NCBI GenBank assembly: GCA_016218685.1
Contig: JACRDD010000042.1
Coordinates: 1-64,000, forward strand
DNA length: 64,000 nt
Reading direction: 5' to 3'
From: Desulfobacterales bacterium
Lineage (GTDB): Bacteria > Desulfobacterota > Desulfobacteria > Desulfobacterales > Desulfosarcinaceae
Both the position numbers and the translations under genes were made by a program. The notes below the pieces were generated by a model that was not told the DNA's origin, made no database searches, and saw only the letters and a list, made by a program, of their open reading frames with translations. Of this stretch, positions 23,228 to 40,640 are shown in pieces; positions within the stretch are counted from its first letter, which is position 1, and the number at the start of each line of letters is the position of its first letter.

Positions 23228-25831
23228 TTACGTTGTCTCCGCTTCAGGCTTCATCTTGTGTAATCCGATCCATTTGGCCGAGATGGAGGGAAACCCGCTG
23301 ATGATCGAGGTGAGCACCGCAGCGGCATAGGGTATGGATTGCACGACCAGCATGATGACCCACACCTGCAAATCCAGGGAGGTGGATGCCTGGCGTAGAT
23401 ACACGCCGACGGCCGCGACCATCAGCACAAGCAAGGCCAGGGTCTCCTGCCAGGTATTGACCACCGCTTTGAGCAATGCGAGCCCGGAGGCCATTTTGGG
23501 GGTGCGGAAGAAGGGCTTGTTGCGGGTGAGAAATCCCATCAGGATCGCCTTGGCGATGGTGTGGGACAACGATAATCCGGCCAACACCGCTGCCATGGTC
23601 TGCGCCACGCTGGCCTCGACCCGGGTGCGGTAGAGGTAGATGATTTTGCTCACTTTGAAAGTAAACAAAGCCAGGGGCAGAACGGATAGGGCTATCAGCG
23701 GCGGATCGAATTGCTTGGGGGCGATGATCATGAGCGCCGACCAGACGATCGCGCCGGCATTGAAGAACAGGTTGATGCCGTCGGCAAGCCATGGCAGCCA
23801 GCCGGCCAGAAAGTGGTAGCGCTGGCCGATGGTCAGGCGATTGGACTTGCGTCCGATGAGATACCCCATGTGACGGCGCAGGATTTGGACGGCGCCATAG
23901 GCCCAGCGGAAGCGCTGTTTCTGATAGTCGGTGAAGGTGTCGGGCATTAACCCTTTGCCATAACTTTTGGCAATATAGATGGCATCATAGGCGCTTTCGA
24001 AAATCCGTAACCCCAATTCGGCATCCTCGGTAATGCACCACTCGCTCCAGGCGCCGCTCTCCTCCAGCACCTGGCGGCGCACCATGGTCATGGTGCCGTG
24101 CTGGATGATGGCGTTGCGCTCGTTGCGCGTCACCATGCCGATGTAGAAAAAGCCTTGATATTCGGAATAGCACACGGCCTTGAACGCATTCTCATTCCCA
24201 TCGCGATAATCCTGCGGCGCTTGAACCAGCGCAATCCGTTCGTTGCTGAACTGGGGCACCAAGTCCCTCAGCCAGTTGGGTTCGACCTGGTAATCGCTGT
24301 CGATTACGGCGACGATGGTCGCCTTGGGATCGGTCTGCTTGAGCGCGAAGTTAAGGGCGCCGGCCTTGAACCCCGCCAGGGGATCCACATGAAAAAAGCG
24401 GAAATGGGCACCCAGTTTCCGACAGTGGGCTTCCACCGGCTGCCATACCTGGGGGTCCTTGGTGTTGTTGTCCACCACCACCACCTCAAAGCGCGGATAA
24501 TCGATGGCGGCCAGGGCATTGAGGGTTTCGATCATCATCTCGGGCGGCTCGTTATAGGCCGGCACATGGACGGAGACGTAGGGCAACAAATCTTCCGGCA
24601 TCCAAACCGGATGGAAGGAACGCCGCCGCCGGGTGACCCACAGGGCTTCGGCCCATTCGTGGGCCTCGGTCAACAGCACGGCGATGACGCCGATCATGCC
24701 GAAGAACATCATGATCCCTACCACGACGGTCCTCACGGTGAGGTATTGGCGGATATAATCGTACACGATGAGCACCGCGGCCGTGGCCGCGAAGTAGGCG
24801 ACCAGCGCCAGGAAGCTGCGGCCGCGGCGTCGGAGGGTGTCGCTGTCGTTGAGCAGCAGCCCCATCAGGATCATGGCCACGACGACGGAGATGCCGGCCA
24901 AAACATACCAGTTGGGAATCGCCACGATCGGCTCGCTGAAGGCGAACTTGGGGCGGCGATTCACATCGTATACGCCCCAATATGCCCCTACAGCCCCTTC
25001 GGTGACCCGTTTCCAGGGCTGATCGAAGGCCTCCATGATGTAATAGGTGTATTTTTCCTCTTCGGCCCGTTTGAGAAAACGGCGCAGGAAGGTGGCCTCG
25101 TTGGCGGTGGAGGCCACGGCGCCCTGCCGGGTGCGGCCATTGCTGGGCCAGCCGACCTCGGAGATCACGATGGGTTTATCTGGGAAGAGCACTTTAAGCT
25201 CATTGATCTTGTCCACCACGTAATCGACGGCGTCATCCAGATCGACCCCTTCCCAATAGGGCAACATGTGCACGGCCAGGTAATCCACATGCTCGGCCAG
25301 TTCCGGGTATTTCTTCCAAACATGCCAGGGTTCGGCCGTGCTCACCGGCACCCAGAGCGCTTTGCGCACGCGGTCCAGATAGCCGATCATCTGTTCGACC
25401 GGGATGTCGTTGCGCAGGATGGCTTCGTTGCCGACGATCGCCCGCACCACGTTGGTGTTGGCCTGGGCAACCTCAATCATGGTCTGGATTTCGTGTTCGT
25501 TGCGCTCCGGATCGTCGGCGATCCAGCCGCCCAGGGCCACATTGATGCCATGTTTTTTGGCCAACTCGGGAACCTTGACGATCGTGCCCTCTATCGTATA
25601 GGTACGGACGGCATGCGTCTTTCCGGCCAGAAGCGCCAGATCCTCGTCGATTTGGGCTTCATCGGGATATTTCTTGTCGATGGGGTTGTGCTCGGCGCGC
25701 ATGGGCTGGAAAGAGAAGCCCTGGATGCGCGGCGGCCAGGGCGGCTCATCTTCAGGCTGGTTCATGTAAGCCCAAATACAAATCGCCAGGATGGCTACCG
25801 CTATACCTGTTACGAAATTGACACGTGTCAT
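23228..25831 (-). CDS. GH17-GT2 fusion, NdvB-like beta-glucan synthase
   Basis: 867 residues. After an N-terminal membrane helix (7-25), residues about 40-300 form a GH17-like domain that keeps both catalytic Glu contexts: GNEAI (near 140) and ISEVGWPSNG (near 230). Several membrane helices follow (310-405). A processive GT2 domain then shows VVVVDNN, DSD (AVIDSDYQVE), TED (ITEDAELG) and QRFRW, the D,D,D,QxxRW set. Four or more helices close the protein. The layout is that of NdvB-type proteins making (1,3)-linked glucans, with the GH17 part acting as transglycosylase. Two PilZ proteins in the window could be c-di-GMP effectors, though none is adjacent. Confidence 0.88.
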   Translation of the reverse strand: MTRVNFVTGIAVAILAICIWAYMNQPEDEPPWPPRIQGFSFQPMRAEHNPIDKKYPDEAQIDEDLALLAGKTHAVRTYTIEGTIVKVPELAKKHGINVALGGWIADDPERNEHEIQTMIEVAQANTNVVRAIVGNEAILRNDIPVEQMIGYLDRVRKALWVPVSTAEPWHVWKKYPELAEHVDYLAVHMLPYWEGVDLDDAVDYVVDKINELKVLFPDKPIVISEVGWPSNGRTRQGAVASTANEATFLRRFLKRAEEEKYTYYIMEAFDQPWKRVTEGAVGAYWGVYDVNRRPKFAFSEPIVAIPNWYVLAGISVVVAMILMGLLLNDSDTLRRRGRSFLALVAYFAATAAVLIVYDYIRQYLTVRTVVVGIMMFFGMIGVIAVLLTEAHEWAEALWVTRRRRSFHPVWMPEDLLPYVSVHVPAYNEPPEMMIETLNALAAIDYPRFEVVVVDNNTKDPQVWQPVEAHCRKLGAHFRFFHVDPLAGFKAGALNFALKQTDPKATIVAVIDSDYQVEPNWLRDLVPQFSNERIALVQAPQDYRDGNENAFKAVCYSEYQGFFYIGMVTRNERNAIIQHGTMTMVRRQVLEESGAWSEWCITEDAELGLRIFESAYDAIYIAKSYGKGLMPDTFTDYQKQRFRWAYGAVQILRRHMGYLIGRKSNRLTIGQRYHFLAGWLPWLADGINLFFNAGAIVWSALMIIAPKQFDPPLIALSVLPLALFTFKVSKIIYLYRTRVEASVAQTMAAVLAGLSLSHTIAKAILMGFLTRNKPFFRTPKMASGLALLKAVVNTWQETLALLVLMVAAVGVYLRQASTSLDLQVWVIMLVVQSIPYAAAVLTSIISGFPSISAKWIGLHKMKPEAETT

Positions 25832-26910: not shown

Positions 26911-27297
26911 TCAGGAGTGCAATGAATATCCCCTGATCAGATCCTTGATCTGTTTTTTCTGCTCGGCGCTTAAACGGCCGAACTTCACGCAGCGGCGCTT
27001 GACCGACTGGTTGGAAAAGATCAGTTCGCCGGTGCTGTCATCGCACACGATTCTGCAAGGGACATGGACGGCGGAGTTCGGCCTGTCGGTGAGCAGGGTT
27101 ACGGTCTGTTGATCTCGGCCTACCCTGTTGCCGCTTTCGATATAATAGAACGACAAACCGCCCATGCTGATGTCGTTGATCTGGTTCTTTCCCGAAGACA
27201 GATAGCGTCCCTGAACCACATAAATACCATCTTTCACCCGAAAGCGCCGCCGCTTGCGAAGGCGCAGGGTAAAAAAGCGTTTGATGATTTTGTGCAT
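26911..27297 (-). CDS. PilZ domain protein
   Basis: 128 residues from ATG 27297 (AGGTGG five bases upstream). A basic N terminus contains the RxxxR-type element in RKRRRFRV, and the second PilZ motif is NDISMGG (D/NxSxxG) near residue 40. Both c-di-GMP binding motifs therefore look intact. It is a stand-alone PilZ receptor, probably an adaptor or switch for motility or polysaccharide output. It is single and convergent with the repeat protein. Confidence 0.8.
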   Translation of the reverse strand: MHKIIKRFFTLRLRKRRRFRVKDGIYVVQGRYLSSGKNQINDISMGGLSFYYIESGNRVGRDQQTVTLLTDRPNSAVHVPCRIVCDDSTGELIFSNQSVKRRCVKFGRLSAEQKKQIKDLIRGYSLHS

Positions 27298-27749
27298 TGG
27301 AACCACCTATTCTAAAGGCGGATCGACGACAAATCCTGAGTCGTGAATACCTTCTCCAACGGTTTTAATTGTCAGTTCCTAGTCGATCCGGTTACCGAAA
27401 AAACAAAGCCCAACCGATAACGGGGCGCTTCCTCCGGAAGAGAGAATCTAAGACAGCTCGAGATAGAGTAAACGCCAATTTCTCTAACCGCCAATGCATC
27501 AATTCCATGATCAGGTAGGTGCCATCTACCAAGTATCAGAATTAGCAATTGCGGCAGAAAGCAACAGGTAGAGAACACGATACTTAGGCTAATTGGCAAC
27601 GTGGAGTCAAGGATTCTCTAACGTCGTCTGAGGTTTCTATAGAAGGTTATGATTTTGTTAGAAATGCCCGGGGAAATTTGAATCGGGGATGGGCGTACGG
27701 ACAGTTTCCGGAACGCTGCGCCCATCCCCAGCAGTGCAGAGGCAAACAA
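27298..27749. other. Non-coding gap
   Basis: 452 bases between the PilZ start and the receiver-gene stop, visibly richer in A and T than the surroundings. Apart from the hairpin at 27685-27729 I see no RNA gene. A 75-codon open frame at 27372-27599 (minus) has no ribosome site or family resemblance. Confidence 0.5.
27685..27729 (-). terminator. Hairpin ending the TetR-SulP-phosphorelay operon
   Basis: GGGGATGGGCG (27685-27695) pairs perfectly over 11 bases with CGCCCATCCCC (27719-27729); the loop has 23 bases. It starts about 20 bases after the last stop of the operon. The tract beyond it on the minus strand (ATTCAAATTT) is only partly T-rich. Confidence 0.55.
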
Positions 27750-28178
27750 CTACCAGCCTTTGGTGGTCAGAATGCTTTTCAATTTTTGTTCTGTCTGTTT
27801 GGCCACCAGCACCATTTTGCGCGCCTGGGCGTTTTTGATCTTTTCAGTGAGCACATTCAGATCGGCGGGCTTTTCCACGAAATCCATGGCGCCCAGCTTC
27901 ATGGCCTCGACGCCTTTTTCCAGGGTGGCATGGCCGGTCAGCAGGATCACTTGCAAAGTCGGGTTTCTGGCCTTAATGGCCTTCAGGGTCTCGATGCCGT
28001 CCATGCCGGGCATCTTAAGGTCCAGGACGATGGCATCGTAAGTGCCGCTTTCCACCTCCTGCAATGCCGCCTGGGCCGAATCGGCAGTGGTCACTTGCAT
28101 GCCCCTGGCCGTCATGCGTTCGGACATCACCGTCAAAAAATCCTTCTCGTCATCCACCAACAAAATTTTTTCGGTCAT
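27750..28178 (-). CDS. Response regulator receiver protein (CheY-like)
   Basis: 142 residues, a single REC domain: acidic pair in LLVDDEKD, phospho-acceptor Asp in VLDLKMPG (near 55), Thr in LLTGHA and Lys in EKPAD. A C-terminal tail of about 20 residues is helical and Lys-rich, with no DNA-binding domain. It is the last gene of the operon, 49 bases after the kinase fragment. It probably passes phosphate or signals by protein contact. Confidence 0.88.
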   Translation of the reverse strand: MTEKILLVDDEKDFLTVMSERMTARGMQVTTADSAQAALQEVESGTYDAIVLDLKMPGMDGIETLKAIKARNPTLQVILLTGHATLEKGVEAMKLGAMDFVEKPADLNVLTEKIKNAQARKMVLVAKQTEQKLKSILTTKGW

Positions 28179-28227
28179 ATCATTGCTCCTTTCGACTGCG
28201 TGTCCGTCGGCCCTGTACTGGCCAAGG

Positions 28228-28884
28228 TCAGCGGTTGGATAGGGTTATTGCCATACACCCCAGGGTACCATCCAGATGGTATTCGGCACCCACGGCGTTT
28301 AAAAGGTCGGTTTCGTTCTCGCCGGGAAAATTAGCGGCTGCCGCCAGCCTGGCGGCATCCAAGGCTTCAAATTCAATGCGGCCACCGTCCGGTATCCTGG
28401 TCACCTTTACCGTGAGGGTTTTGCCGGACCCCATGTACTGCAGGCAGATGCTCAGACAGCGCCCCAAAAGGGTCAGCAGCAAATATGGGGCGGTGGTTAC
28501 CGGGATCGTAGCGCCTTCGGGACATACTTGCAGCGTCACCTGGCGCATGGCCGCCTCGCGCTGGGACAGGACGTTCAGCAGGGCCGCGATTTCATTCAGA
28601 TCGATGGCCTTGACAGGCTCATCCACGCTGTGGGCGAAGCGGTTGAGGTTTTTGATGATGCCGTCGGCCCGGGTGATCTGGTCCGCAATGCGGCCGGTAA
28701 CGGTTTTAAAGCGCGCCGGATCGATGGGCAGCCCTTTGTCGGCCATCTGCAAGTAGTCGTCCAGCAAGCCGGCATTCTCCTTGATAATGGCCAGGGCATT
28801 CTTGAGCTCGTGGGAGATGGAGGCCGTGGTGCGGCCGAAATAGGTCAGGCCGCTTTGTCCCACGCGATTCGGTCCAGCGTTCAT
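28228..28884 (-). CDS. Histidine-kinase dimerisation/phosphotransfer fragment without ATPase motifs
   Basis: 218 residues. The H-box SISHELKNALAIIKENAG (near residue 25) is intact. The following part has helical spacing like a HisKA domain, but the N-box Asn and the G1/G2 boxes (DxGxG, GxGxG) of the ATP-binding domain are missing, although the length is about right for such a domain. It may be a histidine phosphotransfer protein or a pseudokinase phosphorylated in trans by the neighbouring kinase. Its ATG overlaps the stop of the receiver gene upstream (ATGA). Confidence 0.75.
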   Translation of the reverse strand: MNAGPNRVGQSGLTYFGRTTASISHELKNALAIIKENAGLLDDYLQMADKGLPIDPARFKTVTGRIADQITRADGIIKNLNRFAHSVDEPVKAIDLNEIAALLNVLSQREAAMRQVTLQVCPEGATIPVTTAPYLLLTLLGRCLSICLQYMGSGKTLTVKVTRIPDGGRIEFEALDAARLAAAANFPGENETDLLNAVGAEYHLDGTLGCMAITLSNR

Positions 28885-29255
28885 TGGCTATTCCCCCTAT
28901 TCTTGGTCAGTTCACGCATCAGCCGGACCAGGTCCTCGATCTCCACGGGTTTGACCAGGTAGCATCGTTCACCGGATTCGCAGGCCACGGTTTCGAAATC
29001 TTTTTCCGATCCATACCCGGTCAAAAAGATGAACTTCATGTGGGGATAGAGCGCCTGCATGCGGGCTTTGAGTTCCAGGCCGCCGATCTTGGGCATCTTC
29101 AGGTCCAGCACCGCCAGATCGTAATGACTTTTGGCCGCGCATTCCAACGCCTCCTGGCCTGAATTCACCCAATCTGCCTCGATGCCGCGCATGTCCAGCC
29201 GTTCGGCCAGGGCCGAGGCCAGATCCGTTTCATCATCCACCAGCAGCACCCTCAT
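28881..29255 (-). CDS. Response regulator receiver protein (CheY-like)
   Basis: 124 residues, a bare REC domain: LLVDDETD, phospho-Asp in VLDLKMPK, Thr in LTGYG and Lys in VKPVE. There is no output domain. The start overlaps the kinase 3' end by 23 bases and the stop overlaps the kinase fragment by four, so all three are translationally coupled. It is likely an intermediate of a phosphorelay. Confidence 0.88.
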   Translation of the reverse strand: MRVLLVDDETDLASALAERLDMRGIEADWVNSGQEALECAAKSHYDLAVLDLKMPKIGGLELKARMQALYPHMKFIFLTGYGSEKDFETVACESGERCYLVKPVEIEDLVRLMRELTKNRGNSQ

Positions 29256-30996
29256 GGTTTCTCCCTTTCAAGATGCCAATGTCGGTCGGCAGGTGAATCG
29301 TAAAGCAAGTGCCCTTGCCCGCTTCACTCGTCACATCGATGCGTCCGCCGATCTCATGAACCAGGTTGTAGGTGATGGAGAGCCCCAGGCCGGTGCCCCC
29401 TTTGCCGGTTTTGGTCGAGAAAAACGGCTCGAAAATGCGATGGACATCCTCAGCCGGTATACCGCAGCCGTCGTCGCAAAAGCTCAAGACAACGCCTTGG
29501 GCGCCGTCTTCCGGCCGGACCTGGACCCGCAAATGACCGCCATCTTCAACTGCCGCGAAGGCATTGTTGACAATGTTGAGAAAGATCTGCTGGAGCTTGC
29601 CCCGGTCGCTGCGGATGGCGATCCAGGCAGGGGAGACATCCACATCAATGTGAATGTCGCGCACTTGAGCCTCTTTGTCTACAAAGCTGAAGACCTCCCG
29701 CACCAGTTCGTCCAGTTGCACATCCTCCACCGTGGCCTCGAGATTTCGGGCAAAGGTAAGCAGCCGTTTGGTAATTTTACCGGCCCGTTTCACCGATCCC
29801 AGGATGGAATCCACCAGGCCTATGAGCTTGGCGTCACCGGCATACAACTGCTTGATGGTGAACAGATCCTTGATGAGCCCGGCTTTCTCGTTGATGATGG
29901 CCAGTGGGTTGTTGATCTCATGGGCCACACTGGCGGCCATGCGGCCGATGCTGGCAAGCTTGTTGCTGTACTCCAGGTGATGCAGGCTCATGAGCCTTTT
30001 TTCGTCGGCCAGGTGAATGTTATGCACCATGTAAGTGGCGGTACCCAGGATAACGCCTAAGATCAGCGTAACGCTGAAGACCAGAAAGAGAATGAGTTCC
30101 AGGCGCGTGCGGTGCCAGCCGCGCATGAGGTCCTGCTGCTTCTTGACGATCATCAGGATAAAGGGCGTATCCTCTATGAAGCAGTAACCGATCTGCAGCC
30201 GTTCACCGGTTTCGTTGACCCCATACACCACCTGGGTGGACGGATGGTATTCGGGCACAGGCAAACTCATGGTTTCGAGCACGCTTCCGAAGGTGCGCGA
30301 ATGGGTCTGGAGAACGCCGCGGCCATTGACCATGAAGGCATCCCCCAAACCACCCAGCTCCATGTTGGCCAAAAGGTCCTCGAAAGGCCCGATGCCCAGG
30401 GAGGCCCGCAGCACCTGGAACGACCCGTTGGACATGTTCTGGCGCACGGCGATGATCATATGCGGCACCTGGCGAAATCCCAGGAAGACATCGCTGACAT
30501 AGACGCCCCGGTCCACCACCATCTGGAACCAGGCCTGCTCGTGGTAATCTTTGTCCTGGAGGCTGAATGGCCCGACATAGGTCTCTTGTTGACCATCGGC
30601 GCCTATGACCCCCAGATCCATGAAGCCGCCACCGAAGCTTTTTTGCAGCCCCTCCAGAATGGTGGCCAGACGCGCCGGGTCGGTGAGCGCCTGAGGCGGG
30701 TTGTCCCGCACGATGAAATCCAGAGCCGCCCTGCGCTCGGCCAGGAAAAAACCCACCACCCGGCGGGTGTTGGAAACCAGCCGAGCGGCCCGCAACCGAA
30801 ACTCCGATTCAAAGGCCTGCTCAGTCACCTTATAATCCACCAGGGTGATGAAGATCAGTGGAAGCAAGGAGACGATACCCGTGAGCAGCACGGACCACTT
30901 CCAGATGCGCCGGTAGTTGAACAGGTAGCGGGAAGTGCCGGGTGAATCGGGGCGCACCTTCCAGAAATCCGGTTTTATGCTGGACAACAGGTTCAT
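29233..30996 (-). CDS. Membrane sensor histidine kinase with periplasmic sensor domain
   Basis: 587 residues from ATG 30996 (a TTG seven codons earlier is possible). There is a membrane helix near 35-55, a periplasmic double-Cache-like sensor of about 240 residues, a second helix near 300-325, then HisKA with VAHEINNPLAII (near 365) and a full HATPase: N-box NIVNNAFAAV, DDGCGIP, and GGTGLGLSI. It is an active kinase by motif content. It shares an operon with SulP and two receivers, so it may sense an anion or a metabolite linked to that transporter. Confidence 0.9.
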   Translation of the reverse strand: MNLLSSIKPDFWKVRPDSPGTSRYLFNYRRIWKWSVLLTGIVSLLPLIFITLVDYKVTEQAFESEFRLRAARLVSNTRRVVGFFLAERRAALDFIVRDNPPQALTDPARLATILEGLQKSFGGGFMDLGVIGADGQQETYVGPFSLQDKDYHEQAWFQMVVDRGVYVSDVFLGFRQVPHMIIAVRQNMSNGSFQVLRASLGIGPFEDLLANMELGGLGDAFMVNGRGVLQTHSRTFGSVLETMSLPVPEYHPSTQVVYGVNETGERLQIGYCFIEDTPFILMIVKKQQDLMRGWHRTRLELILFLVFSVTLILGVILGTATYMVHNIHLADEKRLMSLHHLEYSNKLASIGRMAASVAHEINNPLAIINEKAGLIKDLFTIKQLYAGDAKLIGLVDSILGSVKRAGKITKRLLTFARNLEATVEDVQLDELVREVFSFVDKEAQVRDIHIDVDVSPAWIAIRSDRGKLQQIFLNIVNNAFAAVEDGGHLRVQVRPEDGAQGVVLSFCDDGCGIPAEDVHRIFEPFFSTKTGKGGTGLGLSITYNLVHEIGGRIDVTSEAGKGTCFTIHLPTDIGILKGRNHEGAAGG

Positions 30997-31061
30997 GCTT
31001 TCTCTTTCGGAGCCCAACCCTCAGCAGAGGACCTATTCCTCATCCATTTCCAAGCTGCACT

Positions 31062-32288
31062 CTACCCGCGCGCCATATTCTTCTGTTTGATCTTCTCGTT
31101 GGCCCGCCGGATGGTGGCGCTCAGCTCTTCCACATCCACCGGCTTTTGCAGATACGCGAAGGCCCCCAGGCCCATGCAAGTGTTACGATCGGCCTCGGAA
31201 CCGTGGCCGGTGAGAATGATCACCTCGATCTCCGGCTGGCTCTCCTTGACCCGGCGCAGCACTTCGATGCCATCGATGCCCGGCATCTTGAGATCCAGGA
31301 TCATCACGTCGGGTTCGTCTTCGCGCACCACCTCCAGGGCCGATTCGCCGTCGTAGGCCACGGCCGAACCCAGGTCGCGCATGAGCAACCGCTCGGATAA
31401 GGTCTGCACGAACTCCCGTTCGTCATCCACCAGAAGTATTTTGGAAGGCATATTAAAATCCTGTCTGCGGTAAATATCCGCCTGGTAGAAACCGGGCCCC
31501 ACCTTGGTCTCGACCGCTTGAACGCCGGCCACCTTGCCGGCGATGGTCTTCAGCTCACTCTCCAGCCGGCTGAGCATCAGCACATGCTTGTTGATGGTCA
31601 ACTCCACCCGCCCTTCCCTGGCCTGGACCCCCACCTGATGGCCCTCCTGCACCAGAGCCGCCTCCACCTGGGCTGCCAGCAGGAAATCTTCCACTGCCCG
31701 CTGGCCGCGGCTGGTCATGCGCACCACGGAAGAAGCGGCATTCTGGGCAATGGCGTCGGCGATCTCCTGGGCTTCCATCTTGTCGGTGGGCAGCACCATG
31801 TCGTAGAGCGCGGGAGCCCAGGGATCCTGAGTATGATGCAGCGCAAGGACCCAGGCGGCGCGGTCTTCTTCCTGTTTGTGAATCAATTTGAGCGCCTCGT
31901 TCTCCTTGACCTGCAGCGTCTTGGCCGCCGTGGCCACGCGTGACTTGAGATCGGCGATGAGGCAGACCCGCAGCACATGGCTGATCTCTTTGGGGATCAG
32001 ATGGCCGGCAAACCCGTGGATCACCAGGTTATCGGCCGCCAAGGTGCGTGCCATGGCCATACGCAGGTGGGCCATGGCACGCTCCCGCTCGTGGGTGAAT
32101 TTGTTGAACACCGAGGTGCGCGCCGAAAAAGCGCGCTCGATTTTGGTTTCGGGAATTCCCGACTGCCGGCTGGCCGCCGCAACGAGTTCGGTGTCGCTCA
32201 CCAGTCGATATCCGGTTTGAGCGCTCAGGGCGCGCACCACCGCTTCTTCATTGCAAAACGTTCCGCTAAAAATGGTAATGACCGACAT
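31062..32288 (-). CDS. Cytidylate-kinase-like domain fused to response regulator receiver
   Basis: 408 residues. Residues 1-200 resemble the cytidylate-kinase-like family (ITIFSG start, ELV and VIHGFAGH strands), but the P-loop reads SGTFCNEEAV without GKS/GKT, so nucleotide kinase activity is doubtful. A small domain (205-270) follows, then a REC domain (about 280-400) with LLVDDEREF, LDLKMPG and QKPVD. An internal ATG at 31451 with AGGA seven bases upstream could start a free receiver. It lies 22 bases after sulP. It is perhaps a nucleotide- or redox-sensing input to the phosphorelay. Confidence 0.82.
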   Translation of the reverse strand: MSVITIFSGTFCNEEAVVRALSAQTGYRLVSDTELVAAASRQSGIPETKIERAFSARTSVFNKFTHERERAMAHLRMAMARTLAADNLVIHGFAGHLIPKEISHVLRVCLIADLKSRVATAAKTLQVKENEALKLIHKQEEDRAAWVLALHHTQDPWAPALYDMVLPTDKMEAQEIADAIAQNAASSVVRMTSRGQRAVEDFLLAAQVEAALVQEGHQVGVQAREGRVELTINKHVLMLSRLESELKTIAGKVAGVQAVETKVGPGFYQADIYRRQDFNMPSKILLVDDEREFVQTLSERLLMRDLGSAVAYDGESALEVVREDEPDVMILDLKMPGIDGIEVLRRVKESQPEIEVIILTGHGSEADRNTCMGLGAFAYLQKPVDVEELSATIRRANEKIKQKNMARG

Positions 32289-32310
32289 GTGCTTCTCCCC
32301 TTGACGGCGA

Positions 32311-34446
32311 TTAGTTCTCCACTGCTAAATGGCAAACGGTGAGCAACGGACAGGCCTGCTCCGCGCTCTGACGATGGGATTCGGGATGCACCGCCGTAAT
32401 GGCTTTTTCCATGGTCGGGAAGATATGGTCTTCGCCGATCTTCTCCGGCAGGTGCGTCCGCCGAAACACCTTTAGCACTTCTTCGTTGACCCCGCTCAAC
32501 GAAATGTCTACCCCCGCGCTGCGGATGCGGTCCACCAGCAGGGAGAGCGTCTCTTCCCCCGAGGCGTCGATATCGTTGATGCCGTTGGATACCAGGATGA
32601 TATGCTTCAAACCGGGCTTGGCGCGCATGATCTCCATCATCTTGTCTTCCAGGTAACTGGAGTTGGCGAAGAAGAGCGGCCCGTCGAAACGCACCATGGC
32701 CACATGCTCGCACTCTTTTAACCCGTGGGTGGAAACGCAGCGCAAGGCATCGTCTGCAGCCCGCGCCAGGGATACCACTTTGGGGCGCATGCTCTTATAC
32801 AAAAAAACGCCCAGAGACAACACCACGCCGATCATGATGCCCTTGTCCAGATGGGGCGCGAAGGCCAACGTGGCGATGAAGGAGATGATAGAGATGGCGC
32901 CGTCGTACCACTTGGCATGCCAGGCATGCACGAAGCCCGTTATATTGACCAATCCGATAACGGCCATCATGATTACGGCCGCCAGAACCGATTGGGGCAA
33001 ATGGTAGAGCAGCGGCGTGAAGAACAGCAGGGCGACCACCACCATCAGACTAGTGAAAACGCTGGAAAGGCCTGTGACCGCCCCGGCCTGGAGATTGACC
33101 GCCGATCTGGAAAAAGATCCGGAAGTCGGATAGCCCTTGCCGATAGCGCCGAACAAGTTGGCCAACCCCTGGCCGATCAGCTCCTGATTGGGATCGAGCC
33201 GCTGGCCGGTCTTGCCGGCCATGGCCTTGGCGATGGAGATGGCCTCCATGAAGCCCAGCAGGGAGATGATGGCTGCAAATGGGAACAAACGGCCTATGAT
33301 GGCCAAATCCAGCTTGGGCATCGAAAAGGCGGGTAACCCCTTGGGTATGTCGCCTACTACCGATCCGCCGCCGTTCATGACGATGCGGTCCGTTGCCAGG
33401 ACACTATTGCCGACGCGGATGTGCCAGCGACGGCCGTCGGTCGGGGTACCGGCGGGCAACTCCTCTTCGGGATAAAAAACCAAAGAGCCGCCGTTTTGGC
33501 GCGCGGCCCTGAAGATCATGGTGCGCAACGCTTTCCGGGCCGCCTGGGCTTGATCCTTCAATTTTTGCATGCGGACCTGAATCACTTCGACATCGTGGCG
33601 CGCATCGATGACCCCAACATCATTATGGGATTCGCCGGCCGCGGTCAGGTTTTGATAAATATCGGTCCGCTCCTTGGTAAGCCCGGCCATTTCCTGCGTG
33701 GCTGCGTTGAATTGGGCGATCAGCGCCTGGGCCTTGGATGAATCGATCGCCGAGACGTTAATGGCCTGGTTATGCTCGAATCCGGTGGTCCAGGAGATCA
33801 GGGTGGTGACCACCACGGCCACCAGCACGTTGGGGATGCGCGGTGCAATCTTTTTCAGCCCGTACATGATGCCGAAGGCAAACACGCCCATGAAGAGCGT
33901 CGGCCAGTGGATATAGTGGCCGGCGGCCTGGATCACGCGCCAAATGGTTTCGTAGTGATGCTTGGCCTCGTCCACGTTCACGCCGAACATTTTGGAAAGC
34001 TGGGAGGAGGCGATGATGATGGCGGCCGCGTTGGTAAACCCGTTGACGACTGGATGGGAGAGGAAATTCACGACCAGCCCGAGACGCAAAATGCCTAAGC
34101 TGAGCTGAAAGAGCCCCACCATCATCGCGAGCATGATCGCATAGGCAATATATCCCTCGCTGCCGGCGGTTGCCAGGGGCTCCAGCGATGCCGCGGTCAT
34201 CAGCGACACCACGGCCACCGGCCCGGTGGCCAGTTGCCGGCTGGAACCGAACAGGGCCGCCAGCATGGGCGGCAGGAATGACGCATAGAGGCCGTAGTAG
34301 GCCGGCAGCCCGGCCAGTTGGGCATAAGCCATGGACTGGGGGATCAACACCAGGGCCACGGTCATCCCGGCGATGGCGTCGGCCTTGAGCGCGCCCAAGT
34401 CGTAATCCTTGAACCATTTGATGAAGGGAAAAATCTTGCCAACCAT
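32311..34446 (-). CDS. SulP family anion transporter with STAS domain and large insert
   Basis: 711 residues from ATG 34446, two bases after the tetR stop; the longer frame is not used. The SulP start region (AGMTVALVLIPQSMAYAQLAG) and about ten helices are present, with GDIPKGLPAF and GSFSRSAVN motifs, then a C-terminal STAS domain (GINDIDASGEETL near 620). Residues about 225-362 are an insert of roughly 137 residues, part coiled coil and part soluble, not found in classical SulP proteins. Substrate may be sulfate, bicarbonate or a dicarboxylate. The STAS domain and operon suggest regulated transport. Confidence 0.9.
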   Translation of the reverse strand: MVGKIFPFIKWFKDYDLGALKADAIAGMTVALVLIPQSMAYAQLAGLPAYYGLYASFLPPMLAALFGSSRQLATGPVAVVSLMTAASLEPLATAGSEGYIAYAIMLAMMVGLFQLSLGILRLGLVVNFLSHPVVNGFTNAAAIIIASSQLSKMFGVNVDEAKHHYETIWRVIQAAGHYIHWPTLFMGVFAFGIMYGLKKIAPRIPNVLVAVVVTTLISWTTGFEHNQAINVSAIDSSKAQALIAQFNAATQEMAGLTKERTDIYQNLTAAGESHNDVGVIDARHDVEVIQVRMQKLKDQAQAARKALRTMIFRAARQNGGSLVFYPEEELPAGTPTDGRRWHIRVGNSVLATDRIVMNGGGSVVGDIPKGLPAFSMPKLDLAIIGRLFPFAAIISLLGFMEAISIAKAMAGKTGQRLDPNQELIGQGLANLFGAIGKGYPTSGSFSRSAVNLQAGAVTGLSSVFTSLMVVVALLFFTPLLYHLPQSVLAAVIMMAVIGLVNITGFVHAWHAKWYDGAISIISFIATLAFAPHLDKGIMIGVVLSLGVFLYKSMRPKVVSLARAADDALRCVSTHGLKECEHVAMVRFDGPLFFANSSYLEDKMMEIMRAKPGLKHIILVSNGINDIDASGEETLSLLVDRIRSAGVDISLSGVNEEVLKVFRRTHLPEKIGEDHIFPTMEKAITAVHPESHRQSAEQACPLLTVCHLAVEN

Positions 34447-34448
34447 CT

Positions 34449-35048
34449 TCAACTCCTGAACTCTGAAGGATTTTTTCGCAACAGGACGCGGCACGACTGG
34501 ACCACATCCTCGTACAGCACGCCTGCGTCGTACAACCGATAGGTGTGAAAACGGATCAAGCCATCCACCATGGTAAAAAGGATCATGGCCATGCGCCGGG
34601 CCGGCATTTCGCGGATGGAGCCATCCTTTTGGCCGGCCAGGATCGCCTGCTCGAATATATCGATCAGGCAGTCGTAGATCGCCTCCAGGCAGTCGCGGCA
34701 TTCGGGGTTCACCTGGGCCAGTTCGTAGGCGTCGTGGCGGTGGAGCAGCATGAAGCGATCCTCCATCTGGGAGGCCATTTGCAGGTAAAATGCGATGGCC
34801 TGCTCCACCATGTCCAAACCAGAGGAAAACTGGTGCTCATTGCGGTAACGCGAGAACAGGGCGACGATATCCTCCCGGAAAGCCTTCAAGATGGCAAGGA
34901 AGAGCGCCTCCTTGGTGCTGTAGTGATAAAAGATGGTCCCCTGGGCCACGCCGCTGATCTTGGCCAGCTCGGCCATCGAGGCGTCTTTGTACCCCTTGAT
35001 GGCCAGCAGGTGGGTGGCGACCTGTAAGATATCCTCTTTGCGCGACAT
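34449..35048 (-). CDS. TetR family transcriptional regulator
   Basis: 199 residues. The N-terminal HTH is MAELAKISGVAQGTIFYHY (residues 25-43), standard for TetR. The C-terminal ligand domain is diverse. The ATG is only eight bases past a TATAAA box, so the transcript is nearly leaderless. A perfect palindrome overlies the promoter, which points to autoregulation. It leads the operon and its stop lies two bases before the sulP ATG, so it likely controls the whole set. Confidence 0.93.
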   Translation of the reverse strand: MSRKEDILQVATHLLAIKGYKDASMAELAKISGVAQGTIFYHYSTKEALFLAILKAFREDIVALFSRYRNEHQFSSGLDMVEQAIAFYLQMASQMEDRFMLLHRHDAYELAQVNPECRDCLEAIYDCLIDIFEQAILAGQKDGSIREMPARRMAMILFTMVDGLIRFHTYRLYDAGVLYEDVVQSCRVLLRKNPSEFRS

Positions 35049-35056
35049 AGATAACC

Positions 35057-35087
35057 TTTATACTGAGTACTCAGTCAGTTTTTCCAA
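35057..35087 (-). promoter_or_regulatory. TetR operon promoter with palindromic operator
   Basis: On the minus strand TTGGAA (35087-35082) and TATAAA (35062-35057) are 19 bases apart. Between them, ACTGAGTACTCAGT (35062-35075) is a perfect 14-base palindrome, very like known TetR-family operators. The tetR ATG follows eight bases past the -10. Confidence 0.6.
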
Positions 35088-35196: not shown

Positions 35197-35394
35197 ATGG
35201 GCGCCAATGACCGCAGCGATATTCGTCCGGGTATGGATGTTGAGATCGTTCTGAAGCAAGACCAACGCTCGGGCCGCCTGACCCGCGGCATCTTCCGGGA
35301 TCTGCTGACCCGCTCACCCCATCACCCCCATGGTATCAAAGTGCGTCTGGAGGACGGACAGGTCGGACGCGTGAAACATATCCTCACCCTTTAG
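35197..35394 (+). CDS. YwbE family protein
   Basis: 65 residues, the normal length of this small family. The pattern RSDIRPGMDVEIVLKQDQ, SGxLTRGI and HPHGIKVRLEDGQVGRVK is characteristic. The protein is a small beta-barrel-like domain (KOW/OB type) with no assigned function. AGGAG lies ten bases before the ATG. It is 38 bases before the helicase fusion and may share its transcript. Confidence 0.88.
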   Translation: MGANDRSDIRPGMDVEIVLKQDQRSGRLTRGIFRDLLTRSPHHPHGIKVRLEDGQVGRVKHILTL

Positions 35395-35432: not shown

Positions 35433-38400
35433 ATGACATTCGACCGGCTTAGCGCTCGAACCCTGGCCCTGGATCTGGAAGTCTCCAGGTCGGGCAGCCG
35501 TTTGCGCCGCATCGGCGCCCTCTTTCAGGAACGACCGTTCGAGTGGGCCGAAGGTCAGGGGCCGGTATCCGAGGCTCTGGCCGCCCTGGATGCCTTCGGA
35601 CATTCGGCGACCTTCGTGCTGGGTCACAATATCCTGCGCCACGACCTGCCCCTGCTCCAGGCCCTGGCTCCAGGCATGCGGCTGCTCAGCCGGCCGGTGA
35701 TCGACACCCTTTTGCTTTCGCCCCTGGCCTTTCCCCAGAACCCCTACCACCGCCTGGTGAAAGACTACAAGCTGGTGCGTGCGGCCCTCAGCGATCCCTT
35801 GCAAGATGCCCGCCTGGCCCTCGCGCTTTTCAAGGACCAGTGGCAGAGTTTCGGCAGCCAGGCGCAGGAGAACCCCCAAATACTCTCGGTCTACCGCTTC
35901 TGCTTCGAGCAAAGCCGTTTCGGCGCTTTCAGCGGCGACGGGCTGGCGCAGCTCTTCGCGGCCCTGGGCGCGCCGCCCCTTGCGGGCGTATCCCAAGTGG
36001 AAGATATCTTCCGGCACCTGACATCGGGCAACGTCTGCCGCCAGGCCGCGGCCGGCGTCATCGCCCAACTGGCCACCGCCCCGCCTACCGCCCCTATCGC
36101 GGCTTATGGACTGGCCTGGCTGCGGGTGGCCGGGTCCAACTCGGTCCTGCCCCCCTGGGTGCGCCACCAGTTCCCCGGCATCGTGCCCTTTCTGACCCGC
36201 TTGCGCGACCAGCCCTGCGGCGATCCCGCCTGCGACTACTGCCGGACGATGCACGATCCCGACACCCAGCTCCAGCGCTTCTTCGGTTTCGAGGCCTTCC
36301 GCCCGGCGCCCAAAACGTCCGACGGCCACAGCCTGCAAAGAGAAGTGGTGCTGCACGGCTTGCGCGACCAGCCCCTGCTGGCCATCCTGCCCACCGGCGG
36401 CGGCAAGTCGTTGTGCTACCAGTTGCCGGCCCTGGTGCGCCACATGCGCCGGGGGCAGCTCACCGTGGTGCTCTCGCCCCTGCAAGCCCTGATGAAAGAC
36501 CAGGTGGACAACCTGGTGGCCAACACGGGCACTCCTTTTGCTGCGGCCATCTACGGCCTGCTCACACCCCCCGAGCGGGGCGAAGTGATGGAACGGGTAC
36601 GCATGGGCGACATCGCCATCCTGTATATCTCCCCTGAGCAGCTTCGCAGCCGCTCGGTGCGCGAGGTCCTGTCCCAGCGCGAGATCGGCTGCTGGGTTTT
36701 CGACGAAGCCCACTGCCTCTCCAAGTGGGGCCACGATTTCCGGCCCGACTATCTTTACGCGGGACGCTTCATCCGCGAGTTCACCCAGGCCCAGCAACTG
36801 CCCATGCCGCCCATGAACTGCTTCACGGCCACGGCCAAGCCCGATGTCATCGAAGAGATTACGGCCTACTTCCAGACCGAGCTGAAGCAAACGCTGCATC
36901 TTTTCGAAGGGGGCGTGGAGCGCGGCAACCTGATCTTCGACATCATCCCGGTTTCCGAAGCCCAGAAGCCGGAACAGACCCTGGCTATTGTCCAGCGCCA
37001 CCTGGAGGGCCAGGACACGGCCAGCGCCATCGTCTACGCGGCCCGGCGCAAAACCACCGAGCAGATCCGCGACTACCTGGTGCAAAAAGGCATGACGGCC
37101 GAAGCCTTTCACGCCGGCCTGGAAGCCCACGACAAGCGCCGCATCATCGAAGCTTTCGTGGCCGGCCAGGTGCCGGTGATCTGCGCCACCAACGCCTTTG
37201 GCATGGGCATCGACAAGAGCGACATCCGCCTGGTGCTGCACTACGATCTGCCCGGCTCGCTGGAGAACTACTTGCAGGAGGCCGGACGGGCCGGACGCGA
37301 TCTGAAGCCCGCCCACTGCATCCTGCTCTACGACCCCCAGGACGCCGAAACCCAGTTCTCCCTGGGGGCCTATTCCGAAATCCAGCGCCGGGAGATCCAA
37401 CAAATCCTGGGCTGCCTGCGCCGCGCCAAGCGCAACCGCGACAACGACATCGTCATCACCACCCAGGAGTTGCTGCGCGACGAGGAGCTGGCCGCACTCT
37501 TCGATCCCCAGGACGGGGCCAACGACACCCGCGTGCGCACGGCCCTGGCGTGGCTCGAACGGGCGGGCCTCCTGGAGCGCAACCAAAACCTCACCCAGGT
37601 GTTCCAGGGCAAGCCGCTGGTGAAAAGCATCGCGGCCGCCGAGGAGACGCTAAAGCGGCTGAACCTCTCCCCCACCGGCGAGCAGCTATGGCGCGGCATC
37701 CTGGCGGTGATGTTCAACGCTCCGCCCGACCAGGGCCTCAGCGCCGACGACATCGCCGAACGGCTCTTCTCTTCCGCCGATCAGTTGCGCCGCCTGGAGC
37801 GAAGCAGTGGCCTGACCCCGGCCCAGATGGTGATCCAGGCCATGCACGACATGGCGGATGCGCGGTTGCTGGACAAGGGGCTGATGCTCTCGGCTTTTCT
37901 GCAGACCAAGGGCACCCGCAATGCCCGGCTGCTCCTGGCCCAGGTGGGTGACCTGGAGCAGCGACTGCTCAAATTGATGCAGGAGGAGGCCCCTGACGCC
38001 GAAAACGGCGAGTGGCTGACGCTGGACCTCAGCCGCGTCAACCAGCGGCTTCAGAACGACGGCGCGCCCAGCGATGTGGTCACCTTGCGCCACCTGCTCA
38101 AGGGGTTGGTCGGCGACGGAAAGGGCCTGGCCGGCTCCCATGGGGCTGTGGAACTCAAGCACATCGGCCGCAACCGCTATCGGGTGCAGTTGCGCCGTGG
38201 CTGGCAAACTATCGTCGAGACGGCTGCTTTGCGCCGCAACGTGGCCGCCCTGATTCTGGGCGAACTGCTGGCCAAGGCCAAAGGCGCGGCAGAGGCGGAC
38301 AAGGAGACACCCGGCGAGCTATTGGTGGAGTTCGGCGCCGAAGATCTGGCCGCGGCCATCCGCCACGATCTGCTGCTCCACGCCCAGGTGAGCAAACCCC

Positions 38401-40640
38401 TGGCGGCCATCGACCGGGGCTTGATGTTCCTTCACGAGCACAAGATCGTCACCTTGCAAAACGGATTGGCGGTCTTCCGCCAGGCCATGACCATCCGTCT
38501 GAACCCCAGCGAGCGCCGGAGGCAGTATACCGTGGGCGACTTCAAGCCCCTGGCGGCCCACTACCGCGAGCGGCGCTTCCAGGTGCATGTCATTGTGGAG
38601 TACGCCCAGTTGGCCATGGAGCAACTGGCTCGGGCACTGGGGTTGGTGCTCGATTACTTCGCCATGCCCCGCATGGCTTTCATCCAGAAGTACTTCGCCC
38701 ACCGCCAGGAGATTTTAGAACGGGCCACCAGCGTCGACTCCTACCGCCGCATCGTGGAAGCGCTGCACCACCCGGTGCAGATCGACATCGTGGGCCGGCC
38801 GACGGAGGCCAACCTGTTGGTGCTGGCCGGACCAGGGGCGGGCAAGACCCGGGTGGTGGTCCACCGCTGCGCTTACCTGCTGCGCGTGGAGCGCGTACCC
38901 CCCAGCCGGATACTGGTGATGTGCTTCAACCACCACGCGGCCGTGGCCCTGCGCCGGCGGCTGCATGACCTGGTCGGTCCCGATGCCCGGGGGGTCACGG
39001 TGGCCACTTACCACGGAGCCGCCCTGCGCCTGGCCGGGCTCTCCATGCGCGAGTGGCTGGCCGGCCGGGAATCGGCCGATATCATCGACTTCGACGCCCC
39101 CCTGGCCGCGGCCGTGGCCCTGCTCAAGGGTGAAGCGCCCCTGGCCGGCCTGGACGGCGACACCCTGCGCGAGCAATTGCTGCAAGGCTTCAGCCACATC
39201 CTGGTGGACGAGTACCAGGACATCGACCAGGCCCAGTACGACCTGGTCTCGGCCATCGCCGGCCGCACCCGGCCCGAGGCCGAGAACCGCCTGGCCATCC
39301 TGGCCGTGGGCGACGACGACCAGAACATCTATGCTTTCCGGGGCGCCAACGTGGGCTTCATCCAGCGCTTCCGGCAAGACTACCAGGCCGACCCCATCTA
39401 TATGGTGGAGAACTTTCGCTCCAGCGCCCACATCATCGCCGCGGCCAACCAGCTCATCGCCCACAACCGCGACCGCATGAAGGGCGACCACCCCATCCGC
39501 ATCGATCGCCAGCGCGCGGCCGAACCGGCCGGCGGTCCCTGGGCGGCCCTGGACCCCGTGGCCCAGGGCCGGGTGCAGCGTCTGGTGGTGCAAAACGCCT
39601 CCCACCAGGCCGCGGCCGTATTCCAGGAGCTATCGCGCCTCACCGCCCTTTCGCCCGATCTGAATTGGGAAAACTGCGCCGTGCTGGGCCGCACCAACGA
39701 GAGCCTCACCGCCGTGCGCGCCTGTTTCGAATCCCAGGGAGTCACCGTGCGGCGCAACCTGGCCCAGCCCCTGCCCTTGCCGCGCGTCCGGGAGATCCAT
39801 GGTTTTCTGGAAAGCCTGAAGCAGATTGAAAACCAGATCCACGCCGCCTCGGAGCTGAACGGCCTGTTGCCCGAAACCGGGGCCAACCCCTGGGCCGCGC
39901 TGCTGGCCGAATGGCACGCCGCCTATGGCCTGGAAACCGAAGACGCCCAACTGCCGGTGCAGTTCTACGTGGATTGGCTCTACGAAGCATTGGCCGAGCA
40001 ACGGCGCGAGCGCACCCTCGGCCGGGGCCTCTTTCTCAACACCATCCACGCTGCCAAGGGCATGGAGTTCGACCACGTCTTCATCCTCGACGGCGGCTGG
40101 CACTTGTCGCCCGAACGCAGTAAGCAAGAAGAAGAGCGCCGCCTGCTCTACGTGGGCATGACCCGCGCCCGTCAAACCCTCTGCCTGCTGGAGCTCAAGC
40201 CCCAGGGCAATCCCTTGATCCGTGACCTGAGCGGCGACGCCCTTCTCCACAGGCAGGCCGCCCCCCAGGGCGAAACTACCGCGGAAGCCACCGCGCAACG
40301 CTACGATCTGCTCGGACTCAAGGATATCTTCCTGAGCTACGCCGGCACCTTCCCACCGTCGCACCCCATCCACGCCCACCTGGCCCAACTGGCCGCGGGC
40401 CATCGTTTGCACCTTGCCGCCGCCGGCAGCGGCGTGGAAGTACGCGACCCGGAGAACTTCCCCGTAGCCCGGCTCTCCAAAGAAGCCGCCGCCCTGTGGG
40501 CCCCAAGATTAGAAGATATCCTCGAAGCCCGCGTGGTCGCCATGCTCCGCTGGCGAGCCGACGACGCCAGCGGTGACTATCGCTCTCTGGCCCGAACGGA
40601 GGCTTGGGAAGTACCGATCATCGAGATCGTCTCGCGTTGA
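35433..40640 (+). CDS. Exonuclease-RecQ-UvrD helicase fusion
   Basis: 1735 residues with three parts. Residues 1-150 look like a DEDD 3'-5' exonuclease: DLE (near 12), GHNILRHDLP (near 64), and HRLVKDYKL with DAR (near 108-133). Residues about 290-760 are a RecQ helicase: TGGGKS (near 318), DEAH (near 425), FTATA, and GRAGRD motif VI. Residues about 1100-1620 are a UvrD/PcrA-type helicase: GPGAGKT (near 1133), DEYQD (near 1258), GDDDQNIYAFRG, HAAKGMEFD and YVGMTRAR. All helicase motifs look intact. Such a protein would process recombination or repair ends. It stands alone ahead of a toxin-antitoxin pair. Confidence 0.92.
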   Translation: MTFDRLSARTLALDLEVSRSGSRLRRIGALFQERPFEWAEGQGPVSEALAALDAFGHSATFVLGHNILRHDLPLLQALAPGMRLLSRPVIDTLLLSPLAFPQNPYHRLVKDYKLVRAALSDPLQDARLALALFKDQWQSFGSQAQENPQILSVYRFCFEQSRFGAFSGDGLAQLFAALGAPPLAGVSQVEDIFRHLTSGNVCRQAAAGVIAQLATAPPTAPIAAYGLAWLRVAGSNSVLPPWVRHQFPGIVPFLTRLRDQPCGDPACDYCRTMHDPDTQLQRFFGFEAFRPAPKTSDGHSLQREVVLHGLRDQPLLAILPTGGGKSLCYQLPALVRHMRRGQLTVVLSPLQALMKDQVDNLVANTGTPFAAAIYGLLTPPERGEVMERVRMGDIAILYISPEQLRSRSVREVLSQREIGCWVFDEAHCLSKWGHDFRPDYLYAGRFIREFTQAQQLPMPPMNCFTATAKPDVIEEITAYFQTELKQTLHLFEGGVERGNLIFDIIPVSEAQKPEQTLAIVQRHLEGQDTASAIVYAARRKTTEQIRDYLVQKGMTAEAFHAGLEAHDKRRIIEAFVAGQVPVICATNAFGMGIDKSDIRLVLHYDLPGSLENYLQEAGRAGRDLKPAHCILLYDPQDAETQFSLGAYSEIQRREIQQILGCLRRAKRNRDNDIVITTQELLRDEELAALFDPQDGANDTRVRTALAWLERAGLLERNQNLTQVFQGKPLVKSIAAAEETLKRLNLSPTGEQLWRGILAVMFNAPPDQGLSADDIAERLFSSADQLRRLERSSGLTPAQMVIQAMHDMADARLLDKGLMLSAFLQTKGTRNARLLLAQVGDLEQRLLKLMQEEAPDAENGEWLTLDLSRVNQRLQNDGAPSDVVTLRHLLKGLVGDGKGLAGSHGAVELKHIGRNRYRVQLRRGWQTIVETAALRRNVAALILGELLAKAKGAAEADKETPGELLVEFGAEDLAAAIRHDLLLHAQVSKPLAAIDRGLMFLHEHKIVTLQNGLAVFRQAMTIRLNPSERRRQYTVGDFKPLAAHYRERRFQVHVIVEYAQLAMEQLARALGLVLDYFAMPRMAFIQKYFAHRQEILERATSVDSYRRIVEALHHPVQIDIVGRPTEANLLVLAGPGAGKTRVVVHRCAYLLRVERVPPSRILVMCFNHHAAVALRRRLHDLVGPDARGVTVATYHGAALRLAGLSMREWLAGRESADIIDFDAPLAAAVALLKGEAPLAGLDGDTLREQLLQGFSHILVDEYQDIDQAQYDLVSAIAGRTRPEAENRLAILAVGDDDQNIYAFRGANVGFIQRFRQDYQADPIYMVENFRSSAHIIAAANQLIAHNRDRMKGDHPIRIDRQRAAEPAGGPWAALDPVAQGRVQRLVVQNASHQAAAVFQELSRLTALSPDLNWENCAVLGRTNESLTAVRACFESQGVTVRRNLAQPLPLPRVREIHGFLESLKQIENQIHAASELNGLLPETGANPWAALLAEWHAAYGLETEDAQLPVQFYVDWLYEALAEQRRERTLGRGLFLNTIHAAKGMEFDHVFILDGGWHLSPERSKQEEERRLLYVGMTRARQTLCLLELKPQGNPLIRDLSGDALLHRQAAPQGETTAEATAQRYDLLGLKDIFLSYAGTFPPSHPIHAHLAQLAAGHRLHLAAAGSGVEVRDPENFPVARLSKEAAALWAPRLEDILEARVVAMLRWRADDASGDYRSLARTEAWEVPIIEIVSR

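Follow-up and report, generated by a model that had tools for sequence, protein, structure and literature searches.

A 64,000-nucleotide stretch from the genome of a Desulfobacterales bacterium of the family Desulfosarcinaceae (GenBank assembly GCA_016218685.1, contig JACRDD010000042.1, positions 1 to 64,000 of the forward strand; hereafter, the window) carries seven genes that run in the same direction on the minus strand, between positions 27750 and 35048 (Table 1). In gene order, they encode a TetR-family repressor (TetR), a SulP transporter with a STAS domain (SulP), a fusion of a Cytidylate_kin2 domain with a receiver (hereafter CKR), a dCache-type sensor histidine kinase (HK), a stand-alone receiver (REC1), a histidine kinase-like fragment (HKf) and a second stand-alone receiver (REC2). 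An earlier note, made from the letters of this DNA, had proposed seven same-strand genes of this composition, and Pfam bore it out. With the start codons that we chose, the spacings from TetR to REC2 are 2, 22, 65, −23, −4 and 49 bases, which agrees with the gaps or overlaps of up to about 65 bases that had been described (2–65 bases). The palindromic promoter was likewise recovered: searched with up to 3 mismatches, the operator sequence ACTGACTGAGTRCTCAGT has one match in the window and none in 100 shuffled sequences. Of the 11-bp hairpin said to close the operon, the fold stood, with a stem of 12 bp (−28.8 kcal/mol, z −1.86, 6 of 200 shuffles folding equally well); an intrinsic terminator at this position is doubtful, because the T-run is missing and the hairpin is not among the calls of the terminator scan. 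The sigma-70 promoter scan called no promoter at the TetR operator; by eye, a TTGACA lies upstream of it, with a weak −10 match. No known RNA family scored above the Rfam gathering scores anywhere in the window.

Table 1. Features of the sulP operon in the window, listed in gene order (aa, amino acids)
Feature	Position	Strand	Evidence or remark
TetR operator ACTGACTGAGTACTCAGT	35062..35079	-	13 bases before the TetR start codon; sole match in the window
TetR-family repressor, 199 aa	34449..35048	-	TetR_N 9.9e-13 (Pfam)
SulP transporter with STAS, 711 aa	32311..34446	-	Sulfate_transp 1.9e-105, STAS 7.6e-17 (Pfam)
CKR, 408 aa	31062..32288	-	Cytidylate_kin2 and Response_reg (Pfam)
HK, sensor histidine kinase, 587 aa	29233..30996	-	HisKA and HATPase_c (Pfam), dCache-like N-terminal part
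REC1, stand-alone receiver, 124 aa	28881..29255	-	Response_reg 9.8e-23 (Pfam)
HKf, DHp domain with HExKN box and degenerate C-terminal half, 218 aa	28228..28884	-	HisKA only (Pfam)
REC2, stand-alone receiver with conserved C-terminal tail, 142 aa	27750..28178	-	Response_reg 7e-32 (Pfam)
GC-rich hairpin 3' of REC2, no T-run	27684..27730	-	Folding

Conservation and association with sulfate respiration

CKR was searched for in 40 genomes of relatives, the window's own genome (G000) included, counting near-full-length matches of at least 48% identity; the other genomes are labelled G003, G006 and so on, and loci carry L numbers. The fusion was found in 30 of the 40 genomes, at 34 places, and the neighbourhoods of the 33 places other than the window were examined. 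SulP is present in 29 of these 33 loci and directly adjoins CKR in 28. Among the best 80 CKR loci from a scan of named genomes, a sample that leans to close relatives, SulP lies within 7 kb of CKR in 70. The gene-neighbourhood search that the earlier note had suggested thus places SulP beside CKR in most loci, and the homologs, whose scattering in relatives the note had named as the observation that would speak against the system, are clustered, with SulP missing from 4 of 33 and 10 of 80 loci. Indeed, where the flanking sequence of the best 80 loci was long enough, TetR was found in 39 of the 58 loci with more than 3.6 kb upstream, and HK, HKf and at least two stand-alone receivers in 50, 46 and 43, respectively, of the 51 with more than 4.2 kb downstream. 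Chance clustering of the operon genes is ruled out by the synteny in both sets. Moreover, the pairwise distances of SulP, CKR, HK and HKf run in parallel over 47 loci (r 0.59–0.80, uncorrected for species kinship), at mean identities of 64%, 54%, 48% and 33%, respectively. Eight of the best 80 records are, by record label only, metagenome-assembled genomes of Zixibacteria, LCP-89, Electryonea, Sumerlaeota, Thermoanaerobaculales, Nitrospirae, Bacteroidetes/Chlorobi or Myxococcales, and TetR is lacking in seven of the eight. Genes for CBS-domain proteins share loci with the SulP module in L039/L125, L107, L119, L149 and L177, and are 50–57% identical to that of L039.

The occurrence of CKR is associated with that of dsrA. 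In a survey of 395 genomes drawn from the phylum, with residues 1–275 of CKR as the query, CKR was found in 45 genomes and dsrA in 190. The latter is present in 42 of the 45 genomes with CKR versus 148 of the 350 without it (Fisher test, P-value 1e-11, uncorrected for kinship), as well as in the window's own genome.

Contrary to the earlier note, which knew of no described system with this make-up, the cluster itself has already been described in print. The available passages of PMC11887813 (Sci Adv 2025) describe a conserved sulP cluster with two-component genes, a TetR repressor and a 16-bp palindromic operator as widespread among Desulfobacteraceae, and report the SulP of such a cluster to be abundant and constitutive in Desulfosarcina variabilis. 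The window operon is very probably this cluster; the published one could hold further genes. The locus of Desulfosarcina alkanivorans (L137) reads TetR-SulP-CKR-HK-HKf-REC2. Neither 'cytidylate' nor 'receiver' occurs in the main text of PMC11887813, and the available part of PMC5840216 mentions no two-component system, histidine kinase or response regulator. From the dsrA association and PMC11887813, we infer that the substrate of SulP is sulfate.

Components of the module

CKR consists of a Cytidylate_kin2 domain (residues ~1–185), a BON-like alpha-beta-beta-alpha-beta part (193–263) and a receiver (~280–400). The N-terminal domain matches Cytidylate_kin2 (PF13189) with an E-value of 3.5e-25 and 89.6 bits, against a gathering score of 28, in agreement with its first description as 'kinase-like', but the P-loop is lost: the motif RGxxxxG[KRQ], present in 11 of 12 stand-alone Cytidylate_kin2 relatives, occurs in none of 113 aligned CKR rows, 2 of which show a looser GxxGK-type pattern, and Cys12 occupies the former P-loop place in 106 of the 113. 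Since residues common to CKR and the stand-alone relatives persist, including F64, E69, G92, H104, R117 and Y162-D163, the kinase fold has probably been kept and the ATP site lost. In the receiver, D288, D289, D332, T360 and K382 are found in all 113 rows. The AlphaFold2 (AF2) model of the fusion has a mean pLDDT of 87.8, and the alpha-beta-beta-alpha-beta order of its middle part fits a BON domain; Pfam BON matches in the CKR of some relatives are weak (E 0.0013–0.47, all under the cut-off), and the window's own segment is unmatched. The matches listed by Foldseek and VIA-align searches with CKR were all to receivers. The CKR receiver also matches the NCBIfam model of YycF, which we take to be the same protein as WalR, with 74.7 bits against a cut-off of 340; the match covers positions 2–119 of 231, that is, the receiver half only. 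Stand-alone relatives that retain the P-loop were seen in two settings: directly 3' of a small TauE/SafE-like gene in four genomes (L055, L091, L092 and L093, as a Cytidylate_kin2-type gene), and within or beside the SulP module in L101, L139 and L041.

The two stand-alone receivers keep the residues expected of phospho-acceptors, with D7, D8 and D51 of REC1 in 75 of 75 rows and D9, D10, D53 and K103 of REC2 in 58 of 58, the rows in both cases having been picked by similarity. For the published cluster, the text and the Fig. 5 legend of PMC11887813 call the regulators WalR type, draw an interaction with the promoter and state a classical two-component scheme, in which the kinase senses external sulfate, a WalR-type regulator binds the transporter promoters and TetR provides a second level of control. 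The YycF match is in keeping with this scheme, albeit restricted to the receiver half and far below the cut-off, but we regard the scheme as unlikely, given the make-up of the candidate regulators: REC1 has 124 aa and REC2 142 aa, CKR ends after its receiver, and the DNA-binding domain that is fused to the receiver in WalR/PhoB-type regulators was found by Pfam in none of the three. The earlier reading of three receivers and no DNA-binding response regulator is upheld, which makes direct promoter control by a cluster-encoded receiver appear unlikely and output by protein contact plausible. Since the YycF model was matched in its receiver half only, the published WalR label may derive from receiver similarity alone.

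SulP scores 438.9 bits against the NCBIfam model TIGR00815 (sulP; cut-off 380.45), which places it in the family. An insert (~residues 225–359) separates the two transporter halves (TM7–TM8). The AF2 model of SulP is poor (mean pLDDT 60), so that the transmembrane topology is unreadable from it; the insert is modelled as a helical hairpin and a small beta part (block means 74–89, residues 231–360). If, as we assume, the usual SulP/SLC26 topology applies, the insert faces the periplasm and should be out of reach of cytoplasmic receivers. Of the two contact sites that the earlier note had put forward for the receivers, STAS is therefore possible and the insert unlikely. A periplasmic insert might instead touch the dCache domain of HK, so that the transport state sets kinase activity and the transporter acts as a co-sensor, for which DctA/DcuB with DcuS provide a precedent. 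This idea draws on the lack of the insert in six more distant SulPs that these genomes encode, all with both halves matched (G000:C20, G000:C30:64.7 kb, G004:C17, G005:C483, G006:C4 and G037:C108) and on the position of HK closely 3' of CKR in most loci. We doubt it, however, as SulP-less modules retain the kinase (L043 and L146, which are one contig, as well as L052, L158, L162 and L164).

Of 83 module SulPs, 82 have the STAS motif D.SG and 82 a CPL near the C-terminus (window ~32335–32352); in 64, another Cys follows soon after the CPL. As marks distinctive of module SulPs, both were rejected: among the three of eight other SulPs that were readable, D.SG is present in all three and CPL in one. 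A second, insert-less SulP, 29–31% identical to the module SulP, lies just past the window (G000:C30:64722-66374).

The dCache_1 match of HK (E 7e-9) falls under the curated Pfam cut-off. Of 21 HKf members, all match HisKA in Pfam and none HATPase_c, and all of 90 HKf rows keep H25, N29 and H85, consistent with the parts of a split phosphorelay on separate genes, as proposed from the outset. The HKf profile aligns with kinases, ending within the first half of the HATPase domain, and ordinary kinases are nearest to it; no ChpT or Spo0B chain is among the 28 PDB sequence matches of HKf up to E 10. We consider HKf a candidate histidine phosphotransferase of the ChpT/Spo0B-like kind. HK (69 of 95) and HKf (76 of 89) have the motif E.AGL..D in common, immediately after the H box; of 18 other kinases, the only one to carry it is also a module kinase. 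HKf may thus have branched off from a kinase like that of the module. The E.AG part, however, is not peculiar to the module, as a near motif, E.AGW, occurs in 7 of 12 listed other kinases of these genomes.

The residue class of the H-E-x-K-N box serves phosphatase activity in HisKA kinases, and HKf keeps this class. HKf could accordingly be a phosphatase or a phosphate sink, not a relay step, with the three receivers competing for one kinase, a notion with which the loss of REC1 from 7 of 33 loci that retain HKf would agree. Against it stands the invariant His of HKf, which parallels that of ChpT, where, according to the available part of PMC3433190, His33 shuttles phosphate and the protein cannot autophosphorylate with ATP; we give this alternative little probability.

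The TetR operator and the TauE/SafE permease

Palindromes related to the window's operator precede 43 of 65 TetR genes, versus 0.15 expected from shuffles, some genomes counting twice among the 65. A TetR_N domain and a conserved promoter palindrome, the two hallmarks of a TetR repressor with its own operator, are thus both present. The exact 14-base core of the operator was found at 10 places in ten same-genus genomes (reversed control, 0), namely at eight TetR-SulP promoters, at one TauE operon (G006) and before one DASS gene (G003).

No gene of G003 (99% complete, dsrA present) matched SulP at an E-value of 1e-20 or lower. The G003 module retains TetR, CKR, HK, REC1, HKf and REC2, and between TetR and CKR stand genes for a receiver, a TauE/SafE permease, a small protein and a PPDK-type protein, the Pfam assignments of TauE and PPDK_N having been made on the G000 relatives of these genes. 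Because TauE/SafE stands in the place of SulP while the module is kept, G003 supports the transporter as the target of the module. In L164, a SulP-less module is followed by a TauE gene. It is very improbable that the signalling genes form an independent unit to which SulP is a mere neighbour and not the target, as SulP-less loci (10 of the best 80 named, 4 of the relatives' 33) would allow, given that SulP and CKR are co-stranded in 46 of the 47 named loci with SulP, CKR, HK and HKf, within 400 bases in 43 of those 46 (median gap, 19), and that a TauE/SafE gene joins the SulP-less modules of G003 and L164.

TauE also occurs in a separate operon, in which a receiver lies directly upstream of TauE in 15 of the 16 loci read; 5 of the 16 comprise three stand-alone receivers plus a kinase that aligns with the module HK across most of its length at 31–35% identity. 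A weight matrix built from 23 distinct TetR operators found operator-like sites (17.2–29.0 bits) before the TauE operon in 5 of the 7 same-genus genomes that have this TauE. The operon has no linkage to the SulP module in G000, G006 and G010; in G003 and G005, it has a TetR gene next to it (the G005 contig ends inside TauE). The site in the window's own genome (G000:C38:69462-69481; L081:11463-11482) scores 17.2 bits and precedes a receiver-TauE/SafE operon. As controls, the top score was 11.2 in shuffled sequence and 12.3 in real sequence without such context (L077, inside a coding match). Within the genus, a link of the TauE operon to the TetR operator is well supported by these predicted sites.

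The DASS case is a lead from a single locus. In G003 (L216:10041-10060, G003:C18), the exact operator core lies ~180 bases before a DASS symporter gene (Na_sulph_symp), near genes for an adenosine-specific-kinase-family protein, a hexapeptide protein, a kinase (32% to the module HK) and receivers. We rejected the idea that TetR controls DASS genes in general, with a site at 1 of 16 DASS loci and ~0.7 exact 14-mers expected by chance in ten genomes of this size, by our estimate. A second match with two mismatches in the window's own genome, G000:C26:42220, was placed by eye where a peptidase-like open frame ends.

The neighbours of the operon in the window are a divergently oriented DUF2196 protein of 65 aa next to TetR (35197-35394, +), a 1735-aa protein with DEAD/Helicase_C (RecQ-like by eye) and UvrD helicase domains (35433-40640, +), a small protein with a PilZ match slightly below the curated cut-off (26911-27306, −), and an 867-aa protein with a glycosyl hydrolase family 17 part and a family 2 glycosyltransferase (23228-25831, −).

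Proposed control of sulfate uptake and related systems

We propose, with confidence and reserve in about equal measure, that the module is dedicated to controlling the uptake of sulfate (sulfur oxyanions) for dissimilatory sulfate respiration, combining a TetR transcription layer with a phosphorelay acting by contact. TetR would repress its own operon at the palindrome until released by an effector and, in several species of the window's genus, would also control the unlinked TauE/SafE permease operon. HK would sense a periplasmic signal, perhaps the anion itself, and phosphorylate REC1 and/or REC2 and CKR, and HKf, as an ATPase-less DHp protein, would move phosphoryl groups between the receivers or drain them. 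The likely ends of the relay are phosphorylated CKR and REC2, which would set the activity of the transporter through physical contact, in the simplest case with the SulP STAS domain. The nucleotide-kinase fold of CKR, devoid of a P-loop, would contribute a further input from a nucleotide or metabolite of the cytoplasm.

Several observations weigh against this proposal. SulP is missing from L036, L043, L051 (at a contig end) and L052 among the relatives' loci, and from the ten of the best 80 named loci, several of them on short contigs, so that STAS is not an obligate contact partner; in G004, to which L043 belongs, a SulP of the module type sits on a different contig. REC1 is gone from L042, L044–L047, L049 and L050, all of which retain HKf, and a fixed order HK-REC1-HKf is therefore not general. 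These loci show that neither REC1 nor SulP is indispensable to the module. TetR is absent from 19 of the 58 named loci with enough upstream sequence, and no operator-like site was found at TauE in G001, G007 or 13 loci outside the genus (some reaching 1.5 kb from TauE), nor at the other 15 of the 16 DASS loci. No dsrA match was obtained in three of the 45 surveyed genomes with CKR (G081, 67% complete; G117, 62%; G082, 94%), nor in G004 (86% complete), which has CKR. Finally, the receivers could pass their signal to a DNA-binding regulator whose gene lies elsewhere.

A bolder form of the proposed uptake controller, advanced tentatively and with a modest chance of being right, concerns post-translational control of sulfate entry. 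Here, the relay without a DNA-binding end would load CKR, an ATP-site-less sensor, perhaps of AMP or adenosine 5'-phosphosulfate (APS), the first product of sulfate activation; CKR and REC2 would gate SulP through STAS, or TauE/SafE where SulP has been lost; and one TetR would tie SulP, TauE and occasionally DASS into a single regulon.

A respiration of global importance begins with the uptake of sulfate, and the operon offers a defined, testable set of proteins for its study. On one point, the absence of a DNA-binding receiver from this set, the sequence evidence speaks against the printed model. Two handles stand out, a kinase-fold protein without an ATP site and a TetR operator that possibly links unrelated sulfur-oxyanion transporters.

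The sulP cluster of PMC11887813 shares with that of the window SulP, two-component genes, TetR, a palindromic operator and a cache-type kinase. Beyond the passages available from that paper, we found the P-loop-less CKR, the ATPase-less HKf, the lack of a DNA-binding receiver, the TauE swap, the operator-like TauE sites and the records labelled as other phyla. The DASS cluster in the same source resembles the module in having a cache-type kinase beside a sulfate transporter, but the transporter is of another family, and CBS-domain proteins are named instead of CKR. The separate TauE/SafE operons (G000:C38, G006:C11 and others) also combine a permease with one or more receivers and sometimes an HK-related kinase; they differ from the module in that no CKR or HKf was seen in them, except in G003, and in that a small protein and a PPDK_N/PEP-utilizer protein (Pfam, G000 copy) come after them. 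Among phosphorelay proteins, ChpT of Caulobacter and Spo0B of Bacillus are, like HKf, DHp-type His carriers with a C-terminal half devoid of a detectable ATPase domain, whereas HKf is nearest to ordinary kinases. The Spo0 phosphorelay, KinA-Spo0F-Spo0B-Spo0A, distributes a kinase, a single receiver, a His carrier and a further receiver over separate proteins, as the module does; however, Spo0A binds DNA, and the module, lacking such an end protein, has CKR and REC2 as the candidate ends.

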